Shown piece after piece: positions 14,412 through 24,329 of a DNA stretch of 46,079 bases. The position numbers were made by a program, and so were the translations under genes. Each line of letters opens with the position of its first letter. Positions within the stretch are counted from its first letter, which is position 1. Source of the stretch: Pirellulales bacterium (lineage in GTDB: Bacteria; Planctomycetota; Planctomycetia; Pirellulales; JADZDJ01); contig JADZDJ010000244.1 in assembly GCA_020851115.1 (NCBI GenBank), forward strand, positions 1 through 46,079. The letters run 5' to 3'. Below the pieces are notes generated by a model that saw nothing but the letters and a program-made list of their open reading frames with translations, did no database searches and was not told the DNA's origin.

Positions 14412-17400
14412 CTAAACGGCCACATTTTGGGAAATACTCGGCAATCGCACTCTGCTGGGAGATTCAACGTTCTTTGCATGCAGTTTTAACCATCTGGCGC
14501 GACGAACCCAATAAAAGCGCACCGGCAAGAACAGGTCCACGACTTCATCGGAGATTAGCAACCCTCCCAGCACCGGCAAGGCCATCGGCGCGAGAATCTC
14601 GCCGCCAACTCCCTTGGCAAACACCATCGGAAAAATAGCAATAATCGCTACGCCTTCGGTGAGCAATTTGGGACGCAGCCGGTGAACCGCACCCTCGATC
14701 ACGGCTTGCCGAAGTTCCTCCAGCGATTGGATATTCTCCAGTCCGCCACGCTTCTCAAGGGCTTCGCGCAGATAGACCAGCATGATGATGCCAGTTTCGG
14801 TAGCCATGCCAAAGCACGCAATAAAACCAACCCAGACTGCAACGCTAAAATCCATCGGCGGCGCATCCCAACCCTGCATGATCTTGGGAAACAAGTACAT
14901 GAAAAATGCCCCGCCAGCCAATGCTTCGGGCACTGCAAGCATCATCAGCGCGGCATCCGCCAAGTCGTTGTAAGTCATGTACAGAATGATGAAGATCAGC
15001 ACGATCACCGCGGGAAAGACGAATCGCAGCGTCCGTGCGGCACGCACCTGATGCTCGAATTCTCCACTCCATTCGATATGGACGCCTTCTGGCAACTTGA
15101 TTTTTTGCGAAACCACCCTCTGTGCTTCGTCAACGAAGCCGACAATATCGCGGCCGCGGACATTGAGTGTGACATAGTTGAGCAATCGACCATTCTCGCT
15201 CTTAATCATCGCTGGCCCTTCAACGATCTTTACTTCTGCGACCGCGCTCAGCGGAATCAGCGGCTGCCCCGGTTTGGCGTGAGCGGGCTTCGCCGCATGA
15301 GGGCCGGACGTTTTGTCATCGGGCTTGGCTCCCGGCATTTCCTTATTGCCCGTAGCCATCTCGGCAGTTGTCTCGATTCGATTTCCAGCACTAATCAACA
15401 ATCGTCGAATGCTCTCTTCGTCCGTTCGATCCGCGCGGGCGTAGCGAATCCGAACAGGAAAGCGATTGCGCTGTTCTACGGTGAAGGTGACGGCGCGCCC
15501 GGCCAAGGCAACCTCGATTTCGTTTTGGATGTCTTCGACGGAAATGCCGTACCGAGCGGCTTGCTGGCGGTCGATGTCGATCTGAACGTAGCCTTTGCCC
15601 ATGATCGGAGCAGCGATGACGTCGCGTGCTCCATTGATTGGCTTGAGCGCTGTCTCGATTTCCTTGCACGTCTTGTCAATCACGTCCAAATTCGGGCCAA
15701 ATACCTTGACCCCAATATCCGTCCGAACGCCGGTGGAGAGCATTTCGATTCGATTAATGATCGGCTGGGTAAAGATGTTGCTCCAGCCAGGCACCTGAAG
15801 CACACGCCCCATTTCATCATCGACGAGGTCACCCTTGGGTCCGGTCTGCCGAGGCCAGAGAAACACGCGGTCGTGAAAGGGAGCCGTCAATTGCTCGCGG
15901 ATCGAGACAAACGAAGCAAAATCCGCTTCACTAGGCGCGTTTCCAAGTTGTGATTGAATCGTGGCATCCGCGAAACGTTTTAATTCCTGCCCCCGTGGAG
16001 CGCCGGTCACTAATCCAACCCCTTGTGCGCCCTTCGCCAGTTCCTGTAAGGCGTACCAGGTAAATACTTCGGTGCCGCGGTCGAATAGCTCCCAATTCAC
16101 TTGACCAACTCGTTCTCTCCATTTCTCCGTTCGGTGATCGATGACTGCGCCAAGCAATTCGGTTGCCAGGGTTTCTCTTTCCGCGCCGAAAAACTCAGAA
16201 ACACCGCTGACCAAGTCGCCCAGAGCGGATCGTTTCAAATCCAAGGCGGTTACCGGGTCGGAGATTACGCCTGTTTCAAACAGACTTGCCGCGACATCGC
16301 GAGTGAGTTGCGTGATGTCTTCAAGGACCGGCGCCTCAACCAGCCACGAACCATATTTCGGGCCGAACTTCGCGGCAAGCCGCTTCATTTCGTTCTCGGA
16401 GTCCGCTCCCTGCGGCCACTGTAAGACACCGGCAGCTTCGAGCCTTTGAATTAATTCGCGGATTGCAAATTCGGTCAGCACAGCTTCCAATTCGAACGTG
16501 AACTCGCGATATCGCAACAAGGCCAAACTGCGCATGGATTCGTCGAAACGCTCCAGCGCCTTTTGACATGCATTGTTCATTAAGTTATCGCGATCTTCGG
16601 CATTTGGCGCGCGGATCAAAAAATCCTGGGTTTCCAGCGAATCGAGCACAATTGAGGTCTGACCGGCCGCGTCCTTGTACTTGAGTACGCGCTTGGGCCA
16701 AAGTTCTTTAGGACGGTAATTGACAAAGGTTTCCACCATATCCAGCGGCGCAGGGTCGGTCGGCGTATCGGCACGCCCTGATTTTCCAATCACCGACTCA
16801 ACTTCAGGAAAGCCACGCAAGAGGGCATCGCGGGCTTTGAGATCGTCCGCAGCTTGAGTGATGCTGGCGCGCGGGACGGTAACGGGCATGTCGAGCGTTG
16901 CGCCTTCATCGAGGGCCGGCATAAAGGCCACGCCAATTTTCTGGAAATGAAACGACCACAGCCCGATGAAAATGAGTGTCGCGAGCGCCAAAAACTGTGA
17001 ACGAAAACCTCGCGTGAGAATTACGGTAATCGCCGTGACGACGAAAAAGACCAATAAAAAGGCAGACCGCCACGCCGTTTCGGACGCGCCCTGACCGAAA
17101 ACCGCTTGCAGCGGAAACATCCCGGCCGCCAAAATCAATAAAACGGCAAACATCCACATCACGAGATTTCGGCGAGGCAGCGCCCACGTTAATAGCGGCT
17201 TGTAAATATTGATAAAACTGCGGACGATCCAGTTTTCTTCTTCACTTCGCAGCCTGCCTTTGATGAAGGTGGGAATTAAGGCTGGAACGAGCGTTACCGA
17301 AATTAATGCCACGCCAAGCATGGCAAAGCTCTTGGTAAAGGCGAGGGGATGAAACAGCTTCCCTTCTCGGCCGCTGAGCATGAAGACGGGCACAAACGAC

Positions 17401-18779
17401 AGCAACATAATCAGCACGGAGAAGAAAATCGGCCGCCCGACCGTGCGACAAGGCTCGATCACTAATTCACGAATATCACCCCGAACTTTCTGATCGCCAA
17501 AATGCGCTTTGAGATGATGGGTAGCATTTTCCGTCATCACGATCGCTTGATCGACAAGAATGCCAATCGAGATCGTGATCCCGGCCAGCGACATGATATT
17601 GGCCTGGATGTCGATCACGCCCGTTTCGCGCAGCACCCACATCAAAAAGAACGAAAACAGCACCGATAATGGCAAAGTCACACAGATGACAAACACGCTA
17701 CGGAAGTGCATTAGGATCAGCAGGATGGCAACGGATGCGATGAGCATTTCATGCCACATGACCTCGGTGAGCGTGTGAATGGCGCCGTGAATCAGCCGCG
17801 TGCGGTCGTACGCGGCGACAATATGCACACCCTCGGGCAATCCAGGCTGCAAATCTTGGATTTTTTCTTTCACTCTCTCCGTGACATCCAGCGGATTCTC
17901 CCCATGTCGCATCAGGACCACACCGCCGGTTACTTCGCTGCCGTTCTTTTCGTACACGCTGCGCCGAAACTGGGTGCCAAGCTGCACGGTAGCCAGATTT
18001 TTGACAAAGATCGGCGTGCCTCGGACCTCTTTAATCACCGTATTTTCAATGTCGTACTTATCCTTGATCCAACCGACGCCGCGGACGATGTACTCGGCGT
18101 TGTTCTTCTGAACCACTCCGCCACCCGCCGGCATGTTGCTCTTGCCAACCGCCGCATAAAGCTCGCCTAGGGTAATGCCATAAGCTCTTAAGTCTTCTGG
18201 CCTTACGTCGATTTGATATTCTAGTGGTGTTCCCCCGACGATGGCCACATCCGCAACGCCGGCCGCCGAATTAAGCTGTGGTCCGATGTAAAACTTGTTG
18301 AGCGCCCAGAGCCGCCCTGGATCTATCGGGTTGGCGGCGCTCGTCTCGACGGTATACCAAAAGATTTGTCCCAAGGCCGTCGCATCCGGTGCCAGATATG
18401 GCACGACGCCTGGAGGCAAATAGTCGTTGGCCTGGCGCAGCTTTTCGCCCACACGGTCGCGGGCGAAATAGAAGTCGATGCCATCCTCAAAGATGATAGT
18501 AATCATCGAGAAATTGAATTCGGACGACGAGCGAACCGCTCTGACGCCGGCGAGACCTTGCAATTTCCTGGACAGCGGATAGGTCACCTGATCTTCAACT
18601 TCGCGCGGACTGCGGCCCATCCAGTCGGTGAACACGATCACCTGATTCTCGCTCAGGTCGGGGATCGCATCGACGGGCGTGTTCAAGGTCGCATAGATGC
18701 CGGCAACGGTCAGTGCTGCCGCCAAGATCAAGACCAAAAACCGATTTCGAATCGAGAACTCGATGATTCGCTCAATCAT
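14412..18779 (-). CDS. cusA: CusA-like Cu(I)/Ag(I) efflux RND permease, enlarged
   Basis: The 1455-residue protein is an HAE-type RND pump of the inner membrane, exporting metal through a tripartite complex. Family marks are IPDLSENQVIVFTDW (~40-54), TM4 with GILVDQAIVMTENA (proton-relay Asp410) and GMATETGIIMLVYLREAL near residue 1325. The three methionines that bind Cu/Ag in E. coli CusA appear conserved: Met631 (LDMP), Met681 (PLDMVET) and Met1013 (NRIEML). This favours copper/silver over zinc/cobalt. It is ~400 residues longer than E. coli CusA. About 290 extra residues lie at ~699-990 in the porter domain, an extra hydrophobic segment at ~565-612, and an Ala/Lys/Pro/His-rich loop at ~1145-1172. 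It starts 2 bp after the cusF stop and ends the operon. Confidence 0.92.
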   Translation of the reverse strand: MIERIIEFSIRNRFLVLILAAALTVAGIYATLNTPVDAIPDLSENQVIVFTDWMGRSPREVEDQVTYPLSRKLQGLAGVRAVRSSSEFNFSMITIIFEDGIDFYFARDRVGEKLRQANDYLPPGVVPYLAPDATALGQIFWYTVETSAANPIDPGRLWALNKFYIGPQLNSAAGVADVAIVGGTPLEYQIDVRPEDLRAYGITLGELYAAVGKSNMPAGGGVVQKNNAEYIVRGVGWIKDKYDIENTVIKEVRGTPIFVKNLATVQLGTQFRRSVYEKNGSEVTGGVVLMRHGENPLDVTERVKEKIQDLQPGLPEGVHIVAAYDRTRLIHGAIHTLTEVMWHEMLIASVAILLILMHFRSVFVICVTLPLSVLFSFFLMWVLRETGVIDIQANIMSLAGITISIGILVDQAIVMTENATHHLKAHFGDQKVRGDIRELVIEPCRTVGRPIFFSVLIMLLSFVPVFMLSGREGKLFHPLAFTKSFAMLGVALISVTLVPALIPTFIKGRLRSEEENWIVRSFINIYKPLLTWALPRRNLVMWMFAVLLILAAGMFPLQAVFGQGASETAWRSAFLLVFFVVTAITVILTRGFRSQFLALATLIFIGLWSFHFQKIGVAFMPALDEGATLDMPVTVPRASITQAADDLKARDALLRGFPEVESVIGKSGRADTPTDPAPLDMVETFVNYRPKELWPKRVLKYKDAAGQTSIVLDSLETQDFLIRAPNAEDRDNLMNNACQKALERFDESMRSLALLRYREFTFELEAVLTEFAIRELIQRLEAAGVLQWPQGADSENEMKRLAAKFGPKYGSWLVEAPVLEDITQLTRDVAASLFETGVISDPVTALDLKRSALGDLVSGVSEFFGAERETLATELLGAVIDHRTEKWRERVGQVNWELFDRGTEVFTWYALQELAKGAQGVGLVTGAPRGQELKRFADATIQSQLGNAPSEADFASFVSIREQLTAPFHDRVFLWPRQTGPKGDLVDDEMGRVLQVPGWSNIFTQPIINRIEMLSTGVRTDIGVKVFGPNLDVIDKTCKEIETALKPINGARDVIAAPIMGKGYVQIDIDRQQAARYGISVEDIQNEIEVALAGRAVTFTVEQRNRFPVRIRYARADRTDEESIRRLLISAGNRIETTAEMATGNKEMPGAKPDDKTSGPHAAKPAHAKPGQPLIPLSAVAEVKIVEGPAMIKSENGRLLNYVTLNVRGRDIVGFVDEAQRVVSQKIKLPEGVHIEWSGEFEHQVRAARTLRFVFPAVIVLIFIILYMTYNDLADAALMMLAVPEALAGGAFFMYLFPKIMQGWDAPPMDFSVAVWVGFIACFGMATETGIIMLVYLREALEKRGGLENIQSLEELRQAVIEGAVHRLRPKLLTEGVAIIAIFPMVFAKGVGGEILAPMALPVLGGLLISDEVVDLFLPVRFYWVRRARWLKLHAKNVESPSRVRLPSISQNVAV

Positions 18780-18781
18780 AG

Positions 18782-19081
18782 TTACTGCTTGCTGAGGTTG
18801 GTGAAGATGTAGTCGCCGGAGCGGACTTCCATTCGGCCTTTCACGCGGTCTCCCTCGCCGATGCCTTTTAGCAGTTGCGGCTGATCGACCTTAAAATCCA
18901 TTTCCATTGCTTGCATCAAGCCGGGAATATCGTCGTGATCGAGTCGGATGACTTGCGTCGCGGCATCGACCGCTGTCACTTTGCCAGTCACGTCGTACTG
19001 TTTGGCAGCCGGTTGGCTCTTGCCCTGACAACCAAGCAAAAAAGCAACGGTGAATAATCCGCCGTAAATCGCGCTTCTCAT
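18782..19081 (-). CDS. cusF: CusF-like periplasmic copper-binding lipoprotein
   Basis: The 99-residue product has a lipobox LLGC (Cys18) after a short hydrophobic signal, so it is probably a lipoprotein. The mature part is a CusF-like small beta-barrel: YDVTGKVTAVDAATQVI, then HDDIPGLMQAMEMDF with His49, Met56, Met59 and Met61, and GDRVKGRMEV. In E. coli CusF a His and two Met bind Cu(I)/Ag(I) with a Trp cap; here Met replaces the Trp position, as in many CusF_Ec members. It would hand metal to the pump. The start at 19081 overlaps the adaptor stop codon (ATGA), indicating translational coupling. Confidence 0.85.
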   Translation of the reverse strand: MRSAIYGGLFTVAFLLGCQGKSQPAAKQYDVTGKVTAVDAATQVIRLDHDDIPGLMQAMEMDFKVDQPQLLKGIGEGDRVKGRMEVRSGDYIFTNLSKQ

Positions 19082-21411
19082 TTTTGATTCTCCTTTTGAG
19101 TTGCGTTTCTGAGTTCGATGGCCTTTGCGAGCGATTCCTTGGGTTTGGCCAATGCAATTTCCTTGCAACCTTCACAGCACAAAAAAACCGGCTGACCTTC
19201 AACCATGATGGTGAGCGGCGGGCCCATCGAGCCCAGCCGACTCGTGGGTGCCTCAGCGCAATACTTCTGCGCCTCCACCAGCGCGCGAACGTCGGCGGGC
19301 AATTTCGCCAGTTCCGCCTCGATTTCGGCTTCTTTAGTCGAATCGGCTGATTCATTGGTCTTGGGCGCAGTACGTTCTTGAATCTCTGTTTGAGTTGCGT
19401 TTCTCAGTTCGATGGCCTTTGCGAGCGATTCCTTGGGTTTGGCGAGAGCAATTTCCTTGCAACCTTCACAGCACAAGAAAACTGGCTGTCCTTCGACCAT
19501 GATGGTGAGCGGCGGTCCCATCGAGCCCAACCGGCTCGTGGGCGCCTCAGCGCAAAACTTCTGCGCCTCCACCAGCGCGCGAACGTCGGCGGGCAATTTT
19601 GCCAATTCCGCCTCAATGATGGCTTCTTTGGTTGACTCGGCCGTTTCATTGGTTTTTAGGCCGGTGCGTTTCAGTTCTTCGACTTTCTTCAAGGTTTCTT
19701 GCGGGTTGGCCAGCGCCTTCTGCTTACAATGGTTGCAACAAATGAACACTGGCACACCCTCGATTTCCAATTTCACCGGCGCGCCCATTGATCCGAGAGC
19801 GCTGCCAGCCAGCACGGGGCACCACTTTTGCGCTTCGGCGAGTTTTCGATCCTCAGTAGATAGCTTCGCGAGACCCGAATTAACGTTGTCTACGGGATTC
19901 TCCGGCGTCGAAGGAACCACCGTCGTCACGGACGAGCCCGAAGATTTCGAACCGCTGCTGCCTCCGAAATAGATGGAGCCGGCAGCAGGATTGAGGCGTG
20001 TTTCCGCGTCCACGAGGAAGGAACCGCTGGTCACAACTTTCTCGCCAGCGTTTAATCCTGAGAGGACTGGATAGAATGCTCCACCTTCGGTTGCAGTCAT
20101 TCGTGGTCCCAACGACACGAGTACGCCTTCGTACACTCCGGGCGTATCCTGTCGATAAACGATACGTTGACTGCCCGTGTCGATGACCGAACCTTCCGGC
20201 ACGGCCAGTACCTTTCCTTCCGCCAACTCCCTGGCGCGCTCTTGATCATCAGATTGCAGCGCCGGCAAATCGTTGGGCGATACGTTCAGCGTCACTGTTG
20301 CAGTACCGCCGGGACGTAGTTTGAATTCAGGATTCGCCAGTTCAAAACGCACGGTGACGGTGCGAGTTTCTTCGTCGACATGCGGATAGACAAAGGCTAG
20401 TGTTCCGGTGAAGGGTTCATTGGGAAACGCGCGCGTCGTCGCAGTGACCGTCAGCGGCGAAGCATCCGTCGACGGCGAGCCGTGTTGGAAATTGTTCGGT
20501 AGAAACTTTAGATCATCTTCGTAGATCTGAGCCTGAATCCAGACTTTGGATAGGTCAGCGACATCATAAAGCGGCGTGCCTTCCTCGACATACTGACCCT
20601 CTCGGACATACTTCGTAATGACGTGACCATCGACCGGAGAGCGAATTCGCTGATGTGAATCTGCCTTTTGAGACTTCAGAATTTCGCCTAATTGTTGGTC
20701 GTCGATTCCCAGCAGCTTCAACCGCGAACGCGTATTTTCAATAAATTCTTGATTTCCGCGCTGTTTGGCGTCAATGAGCGTTTGGGCCGTGGCAAACAGT
20801 TCCGGGCTATAGAGCAGTGCCAGGTCGTCGCCGGCCTTGACCATTTGCCCGGTCTGATTGACATATAACTTATCAATCCGCCCTGCGACTCTGGCAGAAA
20901 CTGTGCGCTGGCTCCGCTCGTCGAACTCAACAAAACCTACTGCGTTGATTTGCTTGGAAAGCGGCAGATAACCGACATCGTAGGTCCGCACCCCCGCGAG
21001 GACGACGCGATAGGGTGAAAGTTGCACCCGATTGACAACACCGGCCGGCAGCGTTTCGGGCTTGCCGCTGCCTTTCTTGCGCTTTGAAAGCGGCATGAAG
21101 CAGATGGGGCATTTTTCTTTGGAATTGTCGCGGATAATGGAGGGGTGCATGGGGCAGAAATACTCCACATCTTTACTGGCGGCCGAAGCCGAGTCGGACG
21201 ACCGCGTCCACTTCTCGTAGTAGGCCGACAACGTATCCCATTGCGTGATGACAATTCCGATCACAACCAGAATGGCGATGAATCTGAGTCGCGCGAGTTT
21301 GACCAAAATAATGAAGTCGAACCACCACCAAGCTTTTCGCCATCCCGTGAGTTCCGGCGGGGCGCGCAATCCGCCTTCATCCTGCCACTTCACTTCGTCT
21401 TCGTTTTTCAT
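19078..21411 (-). CDS. cusB: CusB-like RND adaptor with three C-terminal Cys modules
   Basis: The 777-residue periplasmic adaptor has an N-terminal membrane helix (~42-58) and a heavy-metal-binding domain FCPMHPSIIRDNSKEKCPIC (~85-104). The membrane-fusion core follows at ~120-480 (VSARVAGRIDKLYVNQTGQMVKAGDDL, HQRIRSPVDGHV, GGTATVTLNV). After a Ser-rich linker (~484-500) come three copies of a ~68-residue module (~515-582, 603-670, 701-768), each with KxC, GSMG and F(I/L)CCxxCK. The last two copies are nearly identical. The modules resemble TRASH/YHS-type metal-binding domains. The adaptor links the pump to the TolC channel and can pass metal. Two housekeeping-length CusB domains would be ~400 residues, so the tail is unusual. 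Confidence 0.88.
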   Translation of the reverse strand: MKNEDEVKWQDEGGLRAPPELTGWRKAWWWFDFIILVKLARLRFIAILVVIGIVITQWDTLSAYYEKWTRSSDSASAASKDVEYFCPMHPSIIRDNSKEKCPICFMPLSKRKKGSGKPETLPAGVVNRVQLSPYRVVLAGVRTYDVGYLPLSKQINAVGFVEFDERSQRTVSARVAGRIDKLYVNQTGQMVKAGDDLALLYSPELFATAQTLIDAKQRGNQEFIENTRSRLKLLGIDDQQLGEILKSQKADSHQRIRSPVDGHVITKYVREGQYVEEGTPLYDVADLSKVWIQAQIYEDDLKFLPNNFQHGSPSTDASPLTVTATTRAFPNEPFTGTLAFVYPHVDEETRTVTVRFELANPEFKLRPGGTATVTLNVSPNDLPALQSDDQERARELAEGKVLAVPEGSVIDTGSQRIVYRQDTPGVYEGVLVSLGPRMTATEGGAFYPVLSGLNAGEKVVTSGSFLVDAETRLNPAAGSIYFGGSSGSKSSGSSVTTVVPSTPENPVDNVNSGLAKLSTEDRKLAEAQKWCPVLAGSALGSMGAPVKLEIEGVPVFICCNHCKQKALANPQETLKKVEELKRTGLKTNETAESTKEAIIEAELAKLPADVRALVEAQKFCAEAPTSRLGSMGPPLTIMVEGQPVFLCCEGCKEIALAKPKESLAKAIELRNATQTEIQERTAPKTNESADSTKEAEIEAELAKLPADVRALVEAQKYCAEAPTSRLGSMGPPLTIMVEGQPVFLCCEGCKEIALAKPKESLAKAIELRNATQKENQK
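19098..19685 (-). repeat. 294-bp tandem duplication inside cusB
   Basis: GAGTTGCGTTTCT occurs at 19098 and again at 19392, and the following ~260 bases are nearly the same in both copies. The period is 294 bp (98 codons), so the frame is kept. The few differences are mostly silent. A third, older copy of the module lies upstream in the gene (to the right on this map). Confidence 0.9.
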
Positions 21412-21502: not shown

Positions 21503-22027
21503 TTACTTTTTCGTGGGAGTTGGATTGGGAAATCCCAATCGCTTCATCAACTTGTCGTGATCGGCAATGGCCATCGCCAACGATCGGTCGATTCCTTCGC
21601 AACATCTAATAGATGTCGTCTTGTCAACTTCAGGCCCAGCGCAGCAATCGTGCATCTCTTTGTGATGCTTTGCGGCATCGGCTAGGTTCTTGTCAATCAC
21701 ATCGAGCGAGGCCAGAGTCTCTTGATTGCCAATGGCATTCTTCCGCATCCAGGCCATGTGCTTTTGCGCCTTGACGATGTAAGTGCCAATCGCGTCGGAT
21801 ACTTCCTGCGCCAGTTCTTGGTCAACTTTTTCCGTGCTTTGGGCGTATTGCCGATAGTCCTGCGAATACTCCCGCGCACCTCGCATCGAGCGACTGGACG
21901 ATTTGCCGTAGAAGTTATACTGCCCTGCCGCCTTCGATTCGGCGCCGCGCTGCGCGTGTGCAAGATCTACGACTGCTAGGGATGCGACCACAACCGCCAA
22001 CGTTGCCAGACCAATGAACCTGTTCAT
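21503..22027 (-). CDS. Exported His/Met/Cys-rich protein of the copper operon
   Basis: The 174-residue protein has a signal peptide (MNRFIGLATLAVVVASLAVV, cleavage after AHA). The rest is helical and rich in possible metal ligands: KHMAWM (~89-94), KHHKEMHDCC (~120-129), RCC (~141-143) and DHDKLM (~157-161). The heptad-like pattern suggests a helical bundle. I do not know a named family. It lies 91 bp upstream of cusB and 146 bp downstream of the Cys-rich gene on the same strand, so a copper-binding or sensing role in the periplasm is inferred. Confidence 0.7.
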   Translation of the reverse strand: MNRFIGLATLAVVVASLAVVDLAHAQRGAESKAAGQYNFYGKSSSRSMRGAREYSQDYRQYAQSTEKVDQELAQEVSDAIGTYIVKAQKHMAWMRKNAIGNQETLASLDVIDKNLADAAKHHKEMHDCCAGPEVDKTTSIRCCEGIDRSLAMAIADHDKLMKRLGFPNPTPTKK

Positions 22028-22173: not shown

Positions 22174-22668
22174 TCAAACGAGGAGCCGGCGCAACGACAC
22201 GACCAAATCAATTGGCGGCGGCGGACCCGTATTCCACTCGATCGCCTTGAACGGGATTTCGGGATTTGCCGCTGAGGCGGCACCGCCTAACTGGAACCAT
22301 TCGATTTGAAAATCGATGTCCGATGAAGTCACCTTTGGCGACGTGGTGACGATTCCACTGTGTACGACCGCTGTGCAACTGCGTTTCTTTAGAACAAAGT
22401 CGCCTTTTTCTTGCTGCACAGGCGACTTCGAGCAACAACAGCAGCATGGTCCACCGGATTGCGAAGCGCACGAAGCGCAGTGGCAATAGCTCGGCTGACG
22501 ATCTACTTGGCTGTTAATCGACAGAGTTTCTAATGCAACGGTGACGCCGCCTTCCTCGGAACAATTGCAGCCGACGGCCGGCAGTCCGCTCCATAAGAAC
22601 GTCGGCGCAAGCATCATGGCTGCTAGCGTGCGAGTCATTCCACGGCGATTTGCAGAGCGTCTATTCAT
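22174..22668 (-). CDS. Cys-rich exported protein, first gene of the copper operon
   Basis: The 164-residue protein has an N-terminal signal (MTRTLAAMMLAPTFLWSGLP preceded by 10 basic residues) followed by AVGCNC, which may be a lipobox. Eleven Cys lie within the first 100 residues: 34, 36, 62, 64, 67, 75-79 and 98. The core is CHCASCASQSGGPCCCCC, a metallothionein-like cluster. The C-terminal third has no Cys and ends in PPPPIDLVVSLRRLLV. It directly follows a good promoter at 22698-22726. Periplasmic or membrane-bound Cu/Ag sequestration is a reasonable inference. No family is recognised. Confidence 0.65.
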   Translation of the reverse strand: MNRRSANRRGMTRTLAAMMLAPTFLWSGLPAVGCNCSEEGGVTVALETLSINSQVDRQPSYCHCASCASQSGGPCCCCCSKSPVQQEKGDFVLKKRSCTAVVHSGIVTTSPKVTSSDIDFQIEWFQLGGAASAANPEIPFKAIEWNTGPPPPIDLVVSLRRLLV

Positions 22669-22865: not shown

Positions 22866-24329
22866 ATGCCACTAATCCGCACGCTGGGGGTATGCGCAAG
22901 TCTAGCTGCGTTTGCAACTGGCTGCTGCACCACGCCCAAGCAATCACCGCCTTACGTTCAGCAATGCGCGCCGACTCATTGCGCGACGACGGCACCTATA
23001 CGCCAGGCGGCCGAACCGCCTGTCGTACGTGTGTCCCACGTTGAATCGCTGCCGCCAGCTATTGAGGGAGATGAACTGTCGTTGGGCGAAAATGGCGAGC
23101 TGACGTTGCCATGGCTCGTGGGCGAAGTTCAGGCGCGAAACCCATCGCTTCAGGCCATGGCTGCTGCATGGCGTGCAGCCGCACAGCGCTACCCGCAAGT
23201 GGTTGCGCTGGACGATCCGATGTTCACCAGCACCTTAGCGCCCGCATCATTTAATTCACCAACCGCCGAAGGCGCATATGCGCTGGAGTTTGCCCAGAAG
23301 TTTCCCTGGTTCGGAAAACGCGCCGCCCGCGGTCGCACTGCCCAGGCGGAAGCAGATGTCGCTTATCAAAATATCGCAGACGCACGACTTAGGCTTTCGG
23401 AAGCAGCACAAATCGCATTCTTCGATTATTATCTTGTCCAACGAGAATTAGAACTTAACAAGTGGAACACCGACATTATGCGCCAATTCCGTGAATCGGC
23501 GCAATCGAAGTATCGAGCGAACCAAGTCACGCAGCAAGATATTTTGCAGGCCGATGTCGAGCTAACAAGATTGGAACGACGAGAATTGGAGTTGCAACGC
23601 CGAAATGCAGTTGCCATCGCTCGAATTAACACGCTTCTTCATCGGCCACCCTGCGCCGCCCTCTGTCCTCCGCCAGCGCAGCTATTACCCCCACCGGTGT
23701 CAACCGATGTTTGCTCGCTGCAGCAGTTGGCTGCTCAACAACGGCCCGATCTGGCGGCGATCGCGGCCGAAATTCGTGCTCAAGAAGCTGCCGTCGATCT
23801 TGCCAGCAAAGAATATTTTCCCGATACGGAAGTATTTGGCCGATACGACACGTTTTGGCAACCCGCCAGTACCCAAGGCGACTTGCGTGGCCAGGTCGGC
23901 GTGCGGATGAATGTGCCACTGTACCGTGAGCGTCGTCATGCTGCTGTCCGGGAAGCATCTTATCGACTCAGTCAGAAGCAGCTTGAGTACGATCAGAAGA
24001 ACTTGGACGTTCAGTACGAAGTCCAAGACGCCTATGCGCAATTTATCGAAAGCCAGCGGTCGCTTCGTCTGTACAGCGACAAATTTGTGCCGATCACGGA
24101 ACAGAATGTGGCCGCAGCCAGATCGAACTACGATGTCGGCAAGCTCAATTTTTTGGATTTAGCGACCGCGCAGCGACAGTTGATCGAAGTGCGGGAACAG
24201 CATCAAGAAGCCCTCGCCGCGTATTTTCGAAGGATCGCTGAATTGGAGCGGGTAATCGGCGGGCCACTTCCAACAGAACAGATTGAAGAGATCGCAGTGC
24301 CAAAATTGCAAACCGATGTACCGGGCTAA
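22866..24329 (+). CDS. TolC-family outer-membrane channel (CusC-like)
   Basis: The 487-residue protein has a lipoprotein-like start (MPLIRTLGVCASLAAFATGC, Cys20). Two TolC-type repeats follow: PSLQAMAAAWRAAAQRYPQV, LRLSEAAQIAFFDYYLVQRE and later RPDLAAIAAEIRAQEAAVDL, DVQYEVQDAYAQFIESQRS, and ARSNYDVGKLNFLDLATAQR near residue 420. These are the long coiled-coil hairpins of outer-membrane efflux proteins. It would be the exit duct for the CusA/CusB pump. GGAGG lies 5 nt before the ATG. It is transcribed divergently from the cus operon, sharing the 197-bp region that holds the operon promoter. Confidence 0.88.
   Translation: MPLIRTLGVCASLAAFATGCCTTPKQSPPYVQQCAPTHCATTAPIRQAAEPPVVRVSHVESLPPAIEGDELSLGENGELTLPWLVGEVQARNPSLQAMAAAWRAAAQRYPQVVALDDPMFTSTLAPASFNSPTAEGAYALEFAQKFPWFGKRAARGRTAQAEADVAYQNIADARLRLSEAAQIAFFDYYLVQRELELNKWNTDIMRQFRESAQSKYRANQVTQQDILQADVELTRLERRELELQRRNAVAIARINTLLHRPPCAALCPPPAQLLPPPVSTDVCSLQQLAAQQRPDLAAIAAEIRAQEAAVDLASKEYFPDTEVFGRYDTFWQPASTQGDLRGQVGVRMNVPLYRERRHAAVREASYRLSQKQLEYDQKNLDVQYEVQDAYAQFIESQRSLRLYSDKFVPITEQNVAAARSNYDVGKLNFLDLATAQRQLIEVREQHQEALAAYFRRIAELERVIGGPLPTEQIEEIAVPKLQTDVPG

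Follow-up and report, generated by a model that had tools for sequence, protein, structure and literature searches.

Introduction

What are three cysteine-rich repeats doing at the C-terminal end of a CusB-type adaptor, behind what looks like an ordinary adaptor core? The question is raised by a 46,079-nucleotide stretch of DNA (the window; contig JADZDJ010000244.1 of the Pirellulales bacterium assembly GCA_020851115.1), for which a preliminary description had proposed that the repeats bind metal and that, on six-fold assembly, they surround the pump with a dense metal sponge. An adaptor with a C-terminal metallochaperone domain is already known: SilB of Cupriavidus metallidurans ends in a chaperone domain of the CusF type (Bersch et al. 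2011, cited in PMC4446572). The literature that we searched holds no description of a repeated tail module resembling YHS or TRASH domains on such adaptors. Here we describe the adaptor and its operon, trace the repeat through related planctomycete loci and weigh what it may do.

Adaptor and pump operon

The 777-aa ORF at 19078..21411 (−) encodes a genuine CusB/HlyD-type RND adaptor. Its core matches Pfam HlyD_D23 (PF16576; E 6.5e-63, 212 bits against a cut-off of 30), the whole passes NCBIfam RND_mfp (TIGR01730; 116.7 against a cut-off of 94.9) and the best Foldseek match of the core is E. coli CusB (3ne5, E 4.5e-25), so that Pfam and fold comparison agree with the earlier assignment of a normal CusB core. 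This core (aa 125–476; 19984..21039, −), delimited with Pfam and modelled mostly at pLDDT ≥90, comprises barrel-sandwich, beta-barrel and membrane-proximal domains. It is preceded by a single predicted transmembrane helix, the membrane anchor (aa 33–51, FIILVKLARLRFIAILVVI; 21259..21315, −; hydropathy 2.45); a long helix spanning aa 24–56 in the model covers this segment, and A40–F44, L48, I51 and G52 vary hardly or not at all among 69 homologues.

As the preliminary description had it, the adaptor begins with a heavy-metal-binding motif (HMBD, PF19335; aa 84–110, YFCPMHPx..CPICFMPL; 21082..21162, −). The motif is present with the Cys pattern C86-P-M-H ... C101-P-I-C104, at a Pfam score of 23.3 bits that lies slightly below the cut-off of 23.6, and residues C86, M88, C101 and C104 do not vary in the 69 homologues. 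This Cys-type site aligns with the Met-rich stretch WYDPMYPN..PFMDMDL near the N-terminus of E. coli CusB, whose Met-rich N-terminal region receives metal from CusF (PMC4446572). At the other end of the core, a flexible linker (aa 476–503; 19903..19986, −; model pLDDT <50) leads to the modules. In the full-length model these reach a pLDDT of mostly 93–97 and are joined by long helices, with the linker to the core disordered; as modelled, they are best pictured as beads on a tether close to the membrane-proximal domain.

The cusB-type adaptor, a CusF-like gene and a CusA-type pump form an operon-like set on the reverse strand. The CusF-like lipoprotein gene (18782..19081, −; Pfam CusF_Ec E 7.2e-17; lipobox LLGC) lies downstream of the adaptor, its ATG overlapping the cusB stop codon (ATGA). 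A phmmer search of its product against the PDB returned no match, although Pfam detects CusF; the adaptor gave no CusF domain match, CusF being a separate ORF. The RND pump (1455 aa; 14412..18779, −; TIGR00914 E 1e-277) aligns with E. coli CusA such that the methionine triad M573, M623 and M672 corresponds to M631, M681 and M1013, and E625 to E683; in CusA structures these four residues are the ligands of Cu(I) (PMC8092243). Because these Cu(I)-site residues are kept and a CusF-like gene is present, Cu(I)/Ag(I) is the likely substrate as judged from the alignment. A CusC-like outer-membrane efflux protein is encoded divergently upstream of the adaptor (22866..24329, +; Pfam OEP E 1.9e-43).

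The locus therefore shares with E. coli CusCFBA the adaptor core, the equivalents of the four CusA residues, a CusF-like protein and an outer-membrane protein. The E. coli adaptor, in contrast, has no modules and carries a Met-type N-terminal site, whereas that of the window adaptor is Cys-type.

Tail modules and their duplication

Within ORF 19078–21411, we confirmed that the adaptor ends in three Cys modules: module 1 at aa 514–577 (19681..19872, −; E 2.6e-31; aa 510–585 modelled), module 2 at aa 603–666 (19414..19605, −; E 1.0e-27) and module 3, a recent duplicate of module 2, at aa 701–764 (19120..19311, −; E 2.5e-27). All three contain the KxC, GSMG and F(I/L)CCxxCK elements first ascribed to them, with cysteines at positions 531, 558, 559 and 562 in module 1, 620, 647, 648 and 651 in module 2, and 718, 745, 746 and 749 in module 3. 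The initial estimate of about 68 residues per module comes close to the conserved core of about 64 aa, within a repeat pitch of 89 aa from module 1 to module 2 and 98 aa from module 2 to module 3. In the window genome (a 304-contig assembly), the module occurs on this adaptor only.

Compared over 76 codons, module 3 shares 99% of its residues and 93% of its nucleotides with module 2, and the differences are almost all synonymous (dN 0.007–0.012, dS 0.23–0.32, dN/dS about 0.03–0.04). The low dN relative to dS shows that both copies have been under strong purifying selection since duplication. This synonymous divergence, together with independent genomes that carry one to three modules in the same place, rules out an assembly artefact or a recent meaningless repeat.

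Conservation was assessed on 119 diverse modules (<72% identity), numbered after module 1. Seven positions (Q528, C531, G540, P545, C558, C559 and C562) show zero variation, and M542 is retained in 117 of the 119. The second putative ligand pair follows the YHS pattern, with C558-x3-C562 placed after the aromatic F556 and both cysteines invariant. The first takes the form Q-x2-C, with Gln in every module, as against [DC]-x2-C in YHS domains.

Relationship to YHS and TRASH domains

YHS and TRASH domains have four metal-ligand positions (ligand scheme in PMC4626032), and for one of them, a mycobacterial YHS domain, there is support for binding of copper (PMC4626032). On the modules, none of the Pfam and NCBIfam models reached its cut-off; the below-threshold Pfam matches were YHS, archaeal TRASH and ATPase-cat_bd, and for YHS (PF04945) the best E among 20 modules was 0.0065, short of the curated cut-off. 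On the window adaptor itself, YHS was not among the Pfam matches listed. We then compared profiles with hhalign, using a YHS profile built from authentic YHS domains encoded in related genomes and, in one case, in the window genome. The module profile matched it with a probability of 95% (E 3.7e-8, score 41.2), against a maximum of 22.6 in 150 column shuffles of each kind, even with Cys columns fixed, and against 14.3 for the reversed YHS profile. Kinship with HMBD was rejected, as that comparison scored just 12.6. The match to YHS is limited to 33 columns in the C-terminal half of the module, where the aligned part reads G-x-x-[YF]-x-C-[SC]-x2-C-x(7)-P-x3-[YT]-L.

AlphaFold modelled a single module (aa 510–585) at a mean pLDDT of 92 as two helices, a beta hairpin and two further helices. 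Foldseek found no significant match to this model (E ≥1); about half of the first 50 matches, all at chain level and with E ≥1, were phenol, toluene or methane hydroxylase chains, and toluene-4-hydroxylase contains a YHS domain (PMC4626032). Searching the PDB with the module profile revealed no significant sequence relative, and a viral fold library gave no significant match, with one TRASH-named protein at rank 21.

The initial guess of a TRASH/YHS relationship is supported by the profile–profile match, by the sub-threshold Pfam matches and, weakly, by the fold search, while no Pfam cut-off was passed. In common with YHS (PF04945) and TRASH (PF08394, PF24273), the module has an alignable C-terminal half, an upstream Cys and a tie to metal-transport proteins. 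It differs in staying below every Pfam cut-off, in having Q-x2-C for [DC]-x2-C and CC-x2-C for CS-x2-C, in its own GSMG-x-P motif and extra N-terminal helical part, and in forming tandem copies on an RND adaptor. We rejected the reading of the module as a plain YHS domain on account of the missed cut-off and the Gln that replaces Asp or Cys at the first ligand position, and because of this Gln we refer to a YHS/TRASH-related family and not to a YHS domain. These comparisons support the view that the module is homologous to the YHS domain and a distant member of the YHS/TRASH superfamily. NosL is said to derive from TRASH-like treble clefs (PMC4999995). NosL and MerB are likewise metal-related and built from such treble clefs (PMC4999995), but there the duplicated copies are fused into one fold, whereas the window modules are separate domains on a stalk.

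Modules in related loci

The preliminary description had suggested counting modules across planctomycete CusB homologues, and had held that their absence from all of these would point to an artefact. We ran this survey on 80 named planctomycete loci from a species-level genome collection and found one to three copies, with at least one C-terminal module in 79 of the 80, so that refutation by absence fails. One module was present in 34 ORFs, two in 35 and three in 10. ORFs with no module were paralogous adaptors, the split ORF L133 (which has its module in the second fragment) and L122, an adaptor with none. Among the 13 closest adaptors within the same order, six have one module, four have two and three have three, at the same place. 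On a tree built from 69 adaptor cores, copy number is clustered by descent and shifts at least 18 times, the counts for L136, L139 and L142 including an internal module. The survey was centred on planctomycetes, and the scan beyond the phylum used adaptor rather than module patterns. On plasmids there was a single partial match (46% identity), on a Phycisphaera plasmid, which gives no indication that plasmids have spread the module widely.

The module is also found away from the adaptor tail. CusA was located in 78 of the 80 loci, and the gap between cusB and cusA could be read in 76. A gene for a one- or two-module protein occupies this gap in 12 (including L133, where it sits beside the split-off adaptor-tail module), and a CusF-like match in eight, one of them partial. 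The module-only proteins are small and mostly have a lipobox; one lipoprotein (L098:2216-2662) joins an HMBD to a single module. In L075, the nearest relative of the window adaptor by core identity (70%), the adaptor (L075:8487-10520) continues through one module into a CusF-like domain in the same ORF, a SilB-like fusion. In a sister adaptor type (L136, L139, L142 and L018–L023), a module lies inside the core at about aa 393–525, before the membrane-proximal part, mostly in addition to a tail module. As it turns up both in the CusF gene slot and in the CusF fusion position, the module is a mobile part.

Comparison with SilB (PMC4446572) brings out both sides of this arrangement. Both proteins are adaptors of the CusB type that end in a metal-handling domain, and in both cases this domain is also known as a protein of its own. 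The SilB tail, however, is a CusF beta-barrel, whereas the window tail is a YHS/TRASH-like four-Cys module present in one to three copies in homologues; and CusF, which in the window has a gene of its own overlapping cusB, is fused behind the module in L075.

Proposed function and alternatives

The tail modules are probably a built-in metal-delivery part and not a sequencing error, because they are conserved in planctomycete pumps, vary in number and occur on neighbouring lipoproteins. Our main reading, to which we assign a probability of roughly 55%, is that they form a planctomycete branch of the YHS/TRASH treble-clef superfamily, metallochaperones that bind soft metal, most likely Cu(I)/Ag(I), and have been serially fused to the adaptor. 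The surrounding genes support a Cu/Ag context; we infer metal binding by the modules, the identity of the metal and its hand-off. The putative ligands, numbered as in module 1, are C531, C558, C559 and C562, which M542 and Q528 may assist, and with the HMBD the adaptor may offer the four metal sites per chain that had been suggested for it.

In the proposed mechanism, a reduced module would take up one periplasmic Cu(I) or Ag(I) ion, using three or four of its thiolates, and the flexible tail would bring the loaded module to the HMBD and/or the periplasmic cleft of CusA, where the ion would be handed over. In this the modules would resemble, in function, the CusF domain at the end of SilB. CusB would then present metal to CusA and activate it, as is established for E. 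coli (PMC4446572). Extra copies would have arisen by tandem duplication, and more modules per chain would mean a higher local capture capacity.

Several observations weigh against metallochaperone function. Where TRASH domains have their first ligand (D or C) the modules have Gln, the YHS match covers the C-terminal half only and Foldseek gave no significant match. Furthermore, in the oxidising periplasm a disulphide bond could link the two vicinal cysteines.

The metal sponge of the preliminary description would draw on the same chemistry, with storage as its aim: around the six-fold ring of adaptors the modules would mainly buffer or store metal and would not pass it on in a directed way. 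In favour of this, a chain can carry as many as three modules besides the HMBD, and the E. coli pump has six CusB subunits (PMC8092243). Most homologues, however, have one or two modules and no more, and small proteins with a single module are encoded in the CusF slot, so we favour delivery over bulk storage; a tether beside the pump also fits hand-off better. Storage as the main role is possible but unlikely, and is less favoured than chaperone function.

A fair rival, though again an improbable one, holds that the modules are treble clefs with structural zinc or protein contacts, aiding oligomerisation or partner recruitment with no transported metal involved. Zinc sites with a structural role are common among treble clefs (PMC4999995), and the conserved non-Cys residues L539, G540 and P545 would suit such a part. 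The 18 copy-number changes on the tree would be odd for a structural element, however, and modules also exist as separate lipoproteins while adaptor L122 does without any; the fourth invariant Cys, which stands where YHS has Ser, suggests that the site is a special one.

We consider it quite unlikely that metal on the tail acts as a sensor or gate, switching CusB–CusA activity or assembly. There is precedent in a mycobacterial adenylyl cyclase, whose YHS domain is thought to switch the enzyme with Cu(II) (PMC4626032), and CusB does activate CusA (PMC4446572), but lone modules on lipoproteins and the variable number argue for ion carrying. A redox role, in which the CC pair and the other cysteines form a disulphide/thiol site that, for example, keeps copper reduced, is very improbable: the vicinal pair is invariant and periplasmic, but no likeness to a redox fold was found and the profile relatives are metal-binding domains.

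Returning to modules as metallochaperones, a broader proposal, to which we would give slightly less than even odds, makes them the planctomycete counterpart of CusF: an undescribed family (Q-x2-C...GSMG-x-P...CC-x2-C) that has been shuttled between lipoprotein, adaptor tail and internal loop, with tandem copies tuning capture. If so, planctomycetes would use a different, Cys-based domain, modular and countable, for periplasmic copper hand-off; adaptors with zero, one, two or three modules would form a natural series in which to probe the copy number of a tethered chaperone against efflux capacity; and a family outside Pfam and NCBIfam coverage at their thresholds would be added.

Other features of the pump loci

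Two further ORFs on the reverse strand lie upstream of the adaptor. The nearer, immediately upstream of cusB (21503-22027, −), encodes a secreted-looking protein of 174 aa with two CC pairs and has relatives near pump genes in 6 of the 80 loci. The other (22174-22668, −) is small, Cys-rich and secreted-looking (CNC, CHCASC, PCCCCC); it matches no Pfam family, and none of the 80 loci has a relative of it. Relative to E. coli CusA, the window pump contains a periplasmic insertion of about 290 aa (aa ~696–983) that has no counterpart there and no reported Pfam match; related stretches, at 26–54% identity, are found in 65 planctomycete loci. Finally, a 417-aa ORF near the pump genes of another locus (L134:7164-8414) combines a His-rich secreted part with two modules at its end.
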